The notes beneath the pieces were generated by a model. The model was not told the origin of the DNA, did no database searches, and saw only the letters and a list, made by a program, of their open reading frames with translations. The position numbers were made by a program, and so were the translations under genes. DNA of 64,000 bases from Candidatus Metaruminococcus caecorum (lineage in GTDB: Bacteria > Bacillota > Clostridia > Oscillospirales > Ruminococcaceae): contig CAJFTY010000028.1 of assembly GCA_904420045.1 (NCBI GenBank), positions 24,915 to 88,914 on the forward strand. Reading direction: 5' to 3'. Each line of letters starts with the position of its first letter. Positions within the stretch are counted from its first letter, which is position 1. Shown here one piece after another: positions 12,057 through 16,743 of this stretch.

Positions 12057-12417
12057 GGGGGCGTAAAGGTTTCGACGGGGATTATGAACGGCCGCAAGCG
12101 AGTAGAGCGGGCGAAAGCTCTTAAAACGTCGCACTTAAAATTAAACGCAAACAAAAACACGAACGCTAATTTAGCATACGCTGCTTAGTTTAAGCAGCTC
12201 GTTCGCTTAAGAGGGACCACGGGCTTAAGCGGGCGTCTTATTTAGTGGTGAACATTTTCCGCCGACGCCTCTGAGCGGAAAAGGAACGAGAGGCTACCCA
12301 CCTCGCCAGCCTGTCAGCCGGCGGGCGGGATGGGGAATTTGAATAGACGGACTGCACTCGGAGAAAACGGTCGGAACTGATTTTCGGACGCGGGTTCGAC
12401 TCCCGCCGCCTCCACCA
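12057..12417 (+). ncRNA. ssrA: Transfer-messenger RNA
   Basis: 5' GGGGGCGTAAAGGTTTCGACGGGG pairs with 3' CGGGTTCGACTCCCGCCGCCTCCACCA (7-bp acceptor stem GGGGGCG/CGCCTCC); internal tag ORF ...ANKNTNANLAYAA stop. Confidence 0.97.
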
Positions 12418-12423
12418 TGATAA

Positions 12424-12463
12424 ACACCGATAAACGAAAAGTTTATCGGTGTTTTGTTTTTTA
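12424..12463 (+). terminator. Intrinsic terminator after ssrA
   Basis: ACACCGATAAAC-gaaaa-GTTTATCGGTGT then TTTGTTTTTT. Confidence 0.8.
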
Positions 12464-12570
12464 AGTACACGCAAAAGTACACACTTTTTCTTTTATGCGT
12501 CCCCAAAGCAAACAGGGCAAGCCGTTAAGCCTATCGCGTCCCCTTTGCGGGCGGGCACCGAGGCAAATGC

Positions 12571-12609
12571 AACAAAAGCCGGTGAGGATGAACCCCACCG
12601 GCTTTTGTT
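12571..12609. terminator. Bidirectional terminator-like hairpin
   Basis: AACAAAAGCCGGTG-aggatgaacc-CCACCGGCTTTTGTT. Confidence 0.55.
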
Positions 12610-12801
12610 ATAGCTCCTATACTTTAAATATCTAATATTGTAAATAGTGAAAGTATAGCTATATACCATATATTTTTTACGAATAGAACCATATTTGTGT
12701 CTCGTACTGCACATGATTGTTCCTTATTCGAACATGTGCAATCTGTTTCCTGTTCAGCACTCTGCTTCCTGCGATACAGTGTTCGCAGGAGGTGGAACTA
12801 T

Positions 12802-13023
12802 ATGACGATTGAAGAAGCATTTTCAAAAGCACTGAAAAAAGCAAGGAAAGAGATGGGAATCACCCAGCAGCTCGCCGCAGAGCTCTGCAAGCTCAGCGTC
12901 AGGGAATATGGCAACATCGAACGGGGAACTTCCAAGCCCGGTATGGACACCATCATTCAAATCTACAACGTGTTCGGCGTGAGCATTTACGAATTCGAAG
13001 CAGAGCTCCCGGACAAAGAATAA
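12802..13023 (+). CDS. Small XRE-family HTH protein (73 aa)
   Basis: MTIEEAFSKALKKARKEMGITQQLAAELCKLSVREYGNIERGTSKPGMDTIIQIYNVF; AGGAGG RBS; start at 12802, not the ORF-track 12697. Confidence 0.82.
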   Translation: MTIEEAFSKALKKARKEMGITQQLAAELCKLSVREYGNIERGTSKPGMDTIIQIYNVFGVSIYEFEAELPDKE

Positions 13024-13030
13024 CCCTCAG

Positions 13031-13057
13031 GCCCTTCCATACGGAAGGGCTTTTTTG
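13031..13057 (+). terminator. Intrinsic terminator
   Basis: GCCCTTCC-atac-GGAAGGGC then TTTTTT. Confidence 0.8.
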
Positions 13058-13112
13058 TGATGAATATAAACAACGTTATGAACTGAACGCTGTTTGAAAT
13101 TACAGGTATCCT

Positions 13113-13136
13113 CAACAATACTTTTTAATATTGTTG
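13113..13136. promoter_or_regulatory. Inverted repeat, candidate operator
   Basis: CAACAATA-CTTTTTAA-TATTGTTG, perfect 8-bp arms, upstream of the second HTH gene. Confidence 0.35.
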
Positions 13137-13294
13137 TCACAAAACTTAATTCTGTTGAATCATATTTTATAGGATTATAGCATTTTTTGAATATGGATTG
13201 TCACAACTATTTGTTTTCTTTGTGAACATCAAATCTTAATTATTTATAATTTTATTTCCTGTTTTATAGTAATAAAAAGGAGGGGAGAATTTTT

Positions 13295-13516
13295 ATGGAA
13301 CTAAAAAATGAAATTGGCAAACGATTAAAGCATGCTAGAAAAAAGAGAGGTCTTAGTCAGCAAACAGCGGCGGAACTCAGCAAGATCAGCGTCCGACAAT
13401 TCGGTAACATCGAAAGAGGTGTGTGTATTCCCGTTCCGGACACTTTGATCCGGATTTATAAAATGTTTGACATTAGCATTTACGACTTACAAACAGAACT
13501 TCCAGACAAAGAATAA
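13295..13516 (+). CDS. Small XRE-family HTH protein, paralogue of 12802-13023
   Basis: MELKNEIGKRLKHARKKRGLSQQTAAELSKISVRQFGNIERG ... ELPDKE; same 73-aa length and identical C-terminus as the neighbour; AAAAAGGAGGGG RBS. Confidence 0.85.
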   Translation: MELKNEIGKRLKHARKKRGLSQQTAAELSKISVRQFGNIERGVCIPVPDTLIRIYKMFDISIYDLQTELPDKE

Positions 13517-14021: not shown

Positions 14022-15398
14022 ATGCGGCAGGAAAATAACCTAGGAAAAGATCCGATTGGCAAACTTGTAGTGCGGATCGCACTCCCCAGTATGCTGGCGC
14101 AATTTGTAAATGTGTTATACAGCATTGTTGATCGAATGTATATTGGAAATATTGCGGATGTAGGCGAGTTGGCCCTTGCCGGTGTGGGCGTATGCGGGCC
14201 GGTCATCACACTCATTAGTTCTGTGGCATCGCTGATCGGAATCGGAGGAGCTCCTCTGATGAGCATCCGGTTGGGCGAAAAAAACCTGCCAAAAGCAAAG
14301 GCGATTTTAGCCAATTCCTTTCTTATGCTCTGTGTGCTTTCGCTGCTTTTAACCGTCGGTCTGTTTTTTATCAAGCGGCCGATGCTCCTGTTTTTTGGCG
14401 CGAGCCAGGCCACGATTTCCTTTGCAAACCAGTATTTTTCCGTTTACCTGATCGGAACGCTGTTTGCTTTGCTCGCCACTGGTATGAACCAGTTTATTAT
14501 CTGCCAGGGCTTTGCAAAAATCGCCATGTTTTCCGTTGTTATAGGTGCCGTTTCCAATATTGTGTTGGATCCCCTCTTTATTTTTGTTTTTCACCTGGGA
14601 GTTTCCGGCGCTGCCATTGCAACGGTATTGTCCCAGCTGGCCAGCTGCTGCTTTGTACTCGCTTTTCTTTTTGGACAGCGCCCTATGGTATCCATTGGCT
14701 TTGGCGGATACAGTTGGAAGATTATGCGCAGGATCCTCGCAGTCGGATTTACGCCGTTTGCCATTATCGCAGCGGATAATGTGATGATTATCGCAATGAA
14801 TATGATTCTTCAGCGGTACGGCGGCCATACACAGGGGGATCTTTTGGTCACCTGCGCCACCATCGCCCAAAGTTTCATGTTGATCGTCACCATGCCGCTG
14901 GGCGGAATCACCGGCGGTACCCAGGCAATTCTGGGATTTAATTACGGAGCCCGCCAGGTGGACCGGGTAAAAGCGGCCCAGCGGAAAATCTTTCTGCTCT
15001 GTTTGATTTACACCGCGTGTATGACTGCCGCCGCCTGGCTTTGCGGGCAGTGGTTTGTGCGTCTGTTCACAAACGACGCAGTTGTGATGGAAAAAGCGCT
15101 GTGGGCGATCCGCGTGTGCACTCTGTCCCTGCTGCCGCTGGGGTTACAATACGAAATTGTCGATGGATTTACCGCCATCGGTCAGGTGCGTTACTCTCTT
15201 CCCCTGTCGTTTTGGAGAAAGATCACCTATTTTGCCGCGCTGTTTGCTTTCCCGGCGATCTGGGGAGCCCAAGCCGCCTTTTTTGCGGAACCTGTTTCCG
15301 ACTTTTTGGGGCCTTTGGTCTCCATCCTTGTGTATCTGGCAGCGATGAAACGAGTGCTGGAAAAACGGCGGGAACAGCCAGTCGAGAAGGTTGGATGA
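14022..15398 (+). CDS. MATE-family efflux transporter
   Basis: 12-TM protein, GKDPIGKLVVRIALPSMLAQFVNVLYSIVDRMYIGNI N-terminus. Confidence 0.92.
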   Translation: MRQENNLGKDPIGKLVVRIALPSMLAQFVNVLYSIVDRMYIGNIADVGELALAGVGVCGPVITLISSVASLIGIGGAPLMSIRLGEKNLPKAKAILANSFLMLCVLSLLLTVGLFFIKRPMLLFFGASQATISFANQYFSVYLIGTLFALLATGMNQFIICQGFAKIAMFSVVIGAVSNIVLDPLFIFVFHLGVSGAAIATVLSQLASCCFVLAFLFGQRPMVSIGFGGYSWKIMRRILAVGFTPFAIIAADNVMIIAMNMILQRYGGHTQGDLLVTCATIAQSFMLIVTMPLGGITGGTQAILGFNYGARQVDRVKAAQRKIFLLCLIYTACMTAAAWLCGQWFVRLFTNDAVVMEKALWAIRVCTLSLLPLGLQYEIVDGFTAIGQVRYSLPLSFWRKITYFAALFAFPAIWGAQAAFFAEPVSDFLGPLVSILVYLAAMKRVLEKRREQPVEKVG

Positions 15399-15481
15399 CC
15401 GGCTTACGCATTTGTCATGCTGGCCAAGCCCCGTCAAATTCATTCGAAGTGGGAAACACACATTGCAAAAACAGGACCATA

Positions 15482-15520
15482 TGGAAAAAGGACTGGCGAA
15501 ACCCGCCAGTCCTTTTTCCA
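15482..15520. terminator. Bidirectional intrinsic terminator
   Basis: TGGAAAAAGGACTGGCG-aaacc-CGCCAGTCCTTTTTCCA, perfect 17-bp stem. Confidence 0.8.
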
Positions 15521-15524
15521 TACT

Positions 15525-15621
15525 GATTCCACGCCGCCCTGACAGGCGGCGACTTGCCCGGCTTTTACCGGTTTTGCTATAAAACAGATTTCAATCCACG
15601 CCGCTTAAAAAAAGCGGCGAC
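15525..15621 (-). CRISPR. Putative relic two-repeat, one-spacer type I-C-like CRISPR array without cas genes
   Basis: Minus strand: GTCGCCGCTTTTTTTAAGCGGCGTGGATTGAAAT (15588-15621) and a degenerate GTCGCCGCCTGTCAGGGCGGCGTGGAATC (15525-15553) separated by 34 nt. Confidence 0.5.
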
Positions 15622-15717
15622 AAAACATCTTTTTCATCATAACCGAAACAATATAATTTTTCAAGGGGAACAAACTCCTCAAAACAGGACAAAAACGTGG
15701 ATTTATGCAGTTGTTTG

Positions 15718-16743
15718 TTATTTTCCTTTGCAATGTTCTTGTTTTTTCTGTTGGATTTTCCGTATACCCTCGGCGTTTTTCTGGTTGATCCATTGGACGG
15801 ACGCGTCCATGGCCGCCCGGCAGGCATTGGTCTGATCCAGGGCGTTTAGCATCACAAAGTCATGAATAATCGCTTGAAACCGTACGGCTGTCACGTTGAC
15901 GCCCGCCCTGCGAAGCTTGCGGGCGTAGGCCTCGCCCTCATAACGCAGTACGTCCGCCTCACCATTTAAAATCATTGTGTCGGGCAGTCCTTTCAGCTGC
16001 TGAACGTCCGCTTTCAGGGGCGAAGCGGTGATCGGACACCGGCATCGGAGATCGGGTGCATATTGGTCCCAAAACCACATCATTCCCTGGCGGTACAGAT
16101 AATAATTCTCGGCAAATTTCCAATAGGTACAGGTGTCAAAGCAGGCATTGGTGACCGGATAGTACAGCAGCTGCTTGTGGATGCGCGGGCCGCACCTCCG
16201 CTTGGCTAAAATCGTCATGGAGGTGGCAAGCGTTCCCCCGGCGCTGTCACCCGCCACCGTCAGGGTGTCAAGGCAACACGTAAGACCCATTTTCGAACGT
16301 AGTTTTGGCAGATCACACAACACGCTGTAGCACTGTTCCATAGCCACGGGATACCGCGCTTCAGGTGCACGGGTGTACTCGGGAAAGACCACTACGGAAT
16401 TGGTGCGGTATGCCAGTTCCCGCACCAGTTTTTCATGGGTGTGAAAGCTTCCAAATACCCATCCGGCACCGTGGATGTAATAGATCATATGTCCGGGATC
16501 GCAGCCCTCTGGAATGACAAAATACACCGTGATGGTTCCCCAGCGCCCGGCAATTGCCTGGCAGGTTTCCACCCGTGCCGGATACATATACACCGGCGTA
16601 TCCTGTGCCTGCTCCAGGCGTTTGCGCCCCTGGCACACAGGGAGTTCAAAAATCAGCGGCGATATGGAATTCGCATCGCAGACGGCTTCTGCCGCCGGCT
16701 CTAATGGCACACATCGTTTCATCGTAAATAACTCCTTATGCAA
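15718..16743 (-). CDS. Alpha/beta hydrolase, HSL-family
   Basis: IHGAGWVFG, GDSAGGTLA motifs; real start probably MKRCVPLEP (16722). Confidence 0.82.
   Translation of the reverse strand: MHKELFTMKRCVPLEPAAEAVCDANSISPLIFELPVCQGRKRLEQAQDTPVYMYPARVETCQAIAGRWGTITVYFVIPEGCDPGHMIYYIHGAGWVFGSFHTHEKLVRELAYRTNSVVVFPEYTRAPEARYPVAMEQCYSVLCDLPKLRSKMGLTCCLDTLTVAGDSAGGTLATSMTILAKRRCGPRIHKQLLYYPVTNACFDTCTYWKFAENYYLYRQGMMWFWDQYAPDLRCRCPITASPLKADVQQLKGLPDTMILNGEADVLRYEGEAYARKLRRAGVNVTAVRFQAIIHDFVMLNALDQTNACRAAMDASVQWINQKNAEGIRKIQQKKQEHCKGK

Follow-up and report, generated by a model that had tools for sequence, protein, structure and literature searches.

A probable type I-C guide-RNA gene of the CreA/CreR type, with a helix-turn-helix regulator as its predicted target, in Candidatus Metaruminococcus caecorum

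CreR are crRNA-like RNAs through which Cascade represses the promoter of its own cas genes (PMC12737573; PMC12948488). In CreTA (type I-B, haloarchaea), CreA is laid out as psiR1-psiS-psiR2, with diverged repeats, a partial match to a promoter and a TTC PAM, and the divergence of the repeats shields these guides from loss by recombination (PMC9458426). The known Cascade-guided regulators mostly have cas genes or dedicated toxins as their targets. The locus described here probably encodes a type I-C guide RNA of the CreA/CreR type, with which Cascade would repress a helix-turn-helix (HTH) regulator. The evidence for this reading comes from one spacer, one target, and one assembly of 60 contigs (2.23 Mb), and it consists of sequence comparisons.

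The mini-array lies on contig C28, in the window (i.e., the whole stretch of 64,000 nucleotides that was analysed). Its first repeat, psi-R1 (GTCGCCGCTTTTTTTAAGCGGCGTGGATTGAAAT), had been proposed as a type I-C repeat in the first-pass annotation, and the placement proved exact: it spans minus-strand positions 15588-15621, is found a single time in the window, and is absent from shuffled sequences. With its 34 nt, a 7-bp stem, and an intact crRNA handle (GTGGATTGAAAT), it has the make-up of type I-C repeats (32-34 nt, GTCGC-stem-GCGTGGATTGAAA[N], palindromic stem). The guide, or psi-spacer (CTGTTTTATAGCAAAACCGGTAAAAGCCGGGCAA, 15554-15587, minus strand), has a length normal for type I-C (34 nt), and its seed consists of its 5' 11 nt. 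It is followed by psi-R2 (GTCGCCGCCTGTCAGGGCGGCGTGGAATC, 15525-15553, minus strand), a second, degenerate repeat in which the stem is retained and the handle is gone (GTGGAATC). The annotation had indeed described a degenerate unit after 34 nt, at the distal end of the array, and both statements hold. A covariance model built from seven repeats on other contigs of the same genome recovers psi-R1 (E 3.5e-8) as well as psi-R2 (E 0.002), so that the window units belong to the same repeat family, scattered over the chromosome. The window unit also has the anatomy of CreR and CreA, namely one or more ectopic degenerate repeats outside a CRISPR array.

Pattern and covariance-model searches gave 13 scored repeat units at six places in this genome: two on contig C18 (one unit after cas7, then a group about 4 kb further on), and one each on C25, C28 (the window), C29, and C54. 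Every unit is unlike the others, and repeats differ within every mini-array, whereas nearly all repeats of one array are identical in the ordinary type I-C arrays of relatives. Among nine full units, the pairwise difference is about 30% in the stem arms and 39% in the loops. The 11-nt handle (GTGGATTGAAA) shows 0/396 pairwise differences among the same units, which were first sought by their 3' end, a single mismatch being allowed, so that badly decayed handles could be missed; the structure-based covariance search added only degenerate array-end units. Differing yet palindromic stems, noted earlier for the two window repeats, turned out to be a genome-wide property: both sides have changed in 4/7 base pairs, 98% of the cells are paired, and shifting the partner strand of the stem abolishes the pairing signal. 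Genus-mate G001 carries a decayed type I-C array (L236:4480-4820, contig C42), whose stems vary and whose handles are mutated (GTGGATAGAAAC, GTGGTTAAAAA). Since decay alone would affect the handle as well, as it has in the decaying G001 array, the repeats of the present genome look maintained rather than decaying. What survives of the units at array edges is the half that a working guide requires, namely the handle in the first units of C25 and C54, and the stem, without a handle, in the last repeat of the window.

Directly upstream of the mini-array stands a promoter-like TTGAAA-17-TATGAT (15636-15664, minus strand; 10/12 consensus bases), and an intrinsic-terminator-like hairpin with a 20-bp stem (15479-15523, minus strand) marks the end of a predicted transcript of ~150 nt. 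This RNA is predicted to fold into the two repeat hairpins and the terminator, with a z of -8.1, a value that owes much to the terminator hairpin. The mini-array sits between convergent genes, which encode a MATE transporter (14022-15398, plus strand) and an alpha/beta hydrolase (esterase; 15718-16743, minus strand). In the only genus-mate compared, the aligned region is the MATE gene alone, with no handle-like sequence in the surrounding 12 kb. Since the convergent MATE/esterase region contains several hairpins, both repeat hairpins could be taken for terminators or dispersed palindromic repeats, devoid of any CRISPR function. That would be highly improbable, because a distinct terminator-like hairpin is already there, the repeats carry no T-tracts after the stem, and units of 33-34 nt with the type I-C handle recur in the genome at a spacing of 33-36 nt, one of them right after cas7.

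No cas gene was seen near the mini-array, and genome-wide Cas7 and Cas1 searches gave no match inside the window, in agreement with the annotation. Its label "Cas-less" does not carry over to the genome, as a matching type I-C effector operon (cas3-cas5c-cas8c-cas7, all with clear type I-C assignments), with no Cas1 detected, was found on contig C18. Cas1 was not found anywhere in the assembly, which is 92.5% complete; the same search found it in 18/61 genomes. A repeat unit begins about 350 nt after cas7, at the usual place of cas4-cas1-cas2, which normally stand after cas7 in type I-C loci. Judging from these gene contents, the CRISPR system of this genome seems to have lost its adaptation genes. 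In Cas3 (L071:155-2266, on C18), comparison with eight relatives shows that about 95 residues are missing, in frame, between GGGKT (motif I) and DEVQ, with the HD motifs and the later helicase motifs retained; outside the deletion, its identity to relatives is 42%, versus 47% among relatives, which is no decisive sign of a relaxed Cas3. As the gap falls in the helicase core, helicase activity has probably been lost, although the gap could be either real or an assembly error. Cas5c is a close relative of BH0337 (Cas5d; 4f3m; E 4e-85), a processing protein of solved structure to which it aligns along its length and whose Tyr-Trp-Lys-Pro and Lys-His positions it keeps, which we take to be the sites of the Cas5d catalytic residues.

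The type I-C PAM is TTC, and type I complexes leave every sixth position unpaired. Targets were sought by scanning for TTC followed by the guide's first bases, with every sixth position ignored. A single outstanding match was obtained, TTC-CTGTTTTATAG-T-AA, at window position 13256 on the plus strand. The predicted Cascade target (13256-13292, plus strand) comprises the PAM (13256-13258) and the protospacer (13259-13292), with which guide bases 1-11, 13, and 14 pair; base 12, a position that type I complexes leave unpaired, is mismatched, and there is no extended pairing beyond 14. The full seed match is unique in the 2.23-Mb genome, the next best carrying one mismatch. This partial, seed-type match beside a PAM falls in a promoter region, where two promoter-like sequences precede the HTH gene: TGAACA-16-TATAAT (13223-13250, plus strand), the target starting six bases past its -10, and TTTATA-16-TATAGT (13243-13270, plus strand), which the target overlaps. 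The protospacer ends two bases ahead of the ATG of the predicted target gene (13295-13516, plus strand), which encodes a 73-aa XRE-family HTH regulator and lies on the same contig, 2.3 kb from the guide. A tandem HTH paralogue (12802-13023, plus strand) has no guide match. The stretch 12057-13516 is occupied by a tmRNA gene, then by the tandem 73-aa XRE-HTH genes, both of which encode the C-terminus ELPDKE. Homologues of the HTH protein amount to one weak match each in phages and plasmids.

In 100 shuffled windows, TTC with the exact 11-nt seed, as found at 13256-13269, never occurred (0/100). Against a null of 177,760 pseudo-spacers taken from the contig and scored over 14 positions, the guide's score was reached by 0.2% when all 333 kb were considered and by three within 3 kb (1.7e-5, or 6e-5 for equally AT-rich seeds). 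The genome's other 12 spacers score only 5-9 in the seed scan. With 13 spacers over 333 kb, the chance of a seed of such quality somewhere is ~2-3%, and that of a match within 3 kb of the spacer's own array is about 1e-3 or less.

The same scan separates lone repeats in related type I-C loci into two classes, 12 units at scores of 11-19 and the others at 3-7. These 12 (L122, L127, L135, L139, L145, L154, L155, L157, L158, L239, L249, and L255) match TTC plus seed 78-216 nt away, all at the starts of cas5 or cas3-like genes, as named from their N-termini. They can be regarded as CreR candidates, their match pattern being as expected of CreR. Such a scan (TTC plus seed, positions 6 and 12 ignored, nearby promoters) finds candidate guides from sequence alone, the 12 type I-C CreR candidates having been recovered in this way. 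For the CreR controls, guide and target are at most about 220 nt apart, as against 2.3 kb for the window guide. On the cas contig C18, the window guide has no match above background, hence none to a cognate cas promoter such as CreR would have, and no CreR-like handle was found upstream of the genome's own cas3.

The spacers of the other mini-arrays offer a different picture. One C18b spacer aligns along its length with a human faecal phage, 30/34 positions agreeing (E 0.04), with no TTC PAM there, and one C25 spacer matches an Enterococcus phage Rha gene (87% over 31 nt), with no adjoining TTC; from these alignments, both look like ordinary immune memory. Unlike them, the window guide is AT-rich, with a seed-only match, and the comparison with phages proposed in the annotation gave nothing: no match was found in phages, viral contigs, or IMG/VR (exact 20-mer). 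IMG/VR also yielded none for the C29 and C25 spacers, and BLAST of the spacers against their own genome returned only the arrays themselves and chance-level matches.

The C25 mini-array (L072:242-334) is located at the end of a contig, next to phage genes for an IrrE-like protease, two anti-repressors, and a tape-measure-like protein, and it is possibly a prophage-borne mini-CRISPR. On C54 (L074:4686-4971), a HAD-hydrolase gene runs into the shortened first repeat and has its stop TGA inside the handle (GGATTGAAAT). A terminator-like hairpin closes the array, which looks as though it were read from the HAD-hydrolase mRNA. The other mini-arrays were also considered as regulators and rejected, as no seed rose above background on the repeat-bearing contigs, BLAST covering the rest of the genome.

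The phage-like spacers of C18b and C25, which match along their length, lend some weight to reading the window unit as a leftover fragment of an immune type I-C array, holding a mobile-element spacer, deprived of its adaptation genes, and matching the HTH seed by coincidence. The missing Cas1, the shortened Cas3, and the degenerate distal repeat (common for trailer-end repeats) point the same way. We nevertheless consider such a fragment rather unlikely, given the invariant handles and covarying stems, the lack of a phage or viral-contig match for the window spacer, and its seed match, which is PAM-adjacent, unique, and located on a promoter no more than 3 kb away (2e-5 to 6e-5 under the null); the C18b phage match is itself without a TTC PAM. 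The invariant handles and covarying stems, together with the promoter- and terminator-like signals and the PAM-adjacent seed-only match at one promoter, also speak against the term "relic" used in the annotation.

Another reading is that of a self-targeting immune spacer, taken from a copy of the HTH region on a mobile element and now tolerated owing to the shortened Cas3. In its favour, the XRE protein encoded at the target resembles phage repressors, the two HTH genes come right after the tmRNA gene (tmRNA 3' ends being common integration sites), and the part of the Cas3 helicase from motif I to the DEVQ box is missing. An acquired spacer should, however, match over its whole length (cf. the C18b spacer), and here the match concerns the first 14 positions only, exactly the seed-only pattern displayed by the lone type I-C regulators, which makes self-targeting very unlikely.

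If the window feature is, as we favour, a guide-RNA gene, its own minus-strand promoter would drive transcription of the mini-array, and Cas5c would cut the transcript at both degenerate repeats, giving a processed guide with 5' AUUGAAAU-CUGUUUUAUAG. Cascade, whose components Cas5c, Cas8c, and Cas7 have their genes on contig C18, would take up this guide and, through a match that is partial and depends on the PAM (TTC, then a seed of 11-14 nt), would be parked on the XRE-HTH promoter/5'UTR. We infer that the parked Cascade would block transcription of 13295-13516, without DNA cutting. The HTH protein could possibly act as a sensor of Cascade availability. On a broader and clearly more tentative view, a retired type I-C system, with no adaptation and a helicase-damaged Cas3, may have become a dedicated gene regulator, in which dispersed, dissimilar guides silence chromosomal regulators (the HTH gene, here), and loss or occupation of Cascade (e.g., by anti-CRISPRs) switches the regulator on. 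A natural CRISPR-interference circuit for an ordinary transcription regulator would, if true, offer part of an answer to why effector operons without adaptation genes persist in some bacteria.

Compared with described systems, the window unit has in common with CreR (type I and V-A; PMC12737573) an ectopic degenerate repeat and a short PAM-adjacent seed, with an effector predicted to repress a promoter. It differs in that it retains a second degenerate repeat and that its guide has no cas-promoter match, the target being an HTH gene off the cas contig; as this target is not a cas gene, the guide is not a CreR in the strict sense. It shares the anatomy of CreA, i.e., two degenerate, mutually diverged repeats around a partly matching spacer, and the TTC PAM, but it belongs to type I-C, does not lie beside the cas operon, and has as its target a protein-coding HTH gene instead of a toxic RNA. 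CrePA, in which a CreA-like RNA represses a protein-coding gene for a KilA-N toxin (PMC12737573), provides a parallel, although the window target is a 73-aa XRE HTH protein without a KilA-N domain, known by its domain alone. With no toxin recognised at the target, the window guide is assigned to neither CreTA nor CrePA. The scaRNA of Francisella novicida is also CRISPR-derived, with a degenerate repeat, and represses a non-cas chromosomal gene by partial complementarity (PMC9458426), but it works with the class 2 effector Cas9, whereas a class 1 type I-C Cascade would be involved here. An ordinary type I-C array shares with the window unit the repeat length, the GTCGC start, the stem, the GTGGATTGAAAT end, and the ~34-nt spacer; in this genome, by contrast, the repeats are mutually different in each mini-array and scattered, and adaptation genes were not found (Cas1 search). 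The class of mechanism proposed is, thus, already known, and what is new is the predicted non-cas target and the adaptation-less setting.
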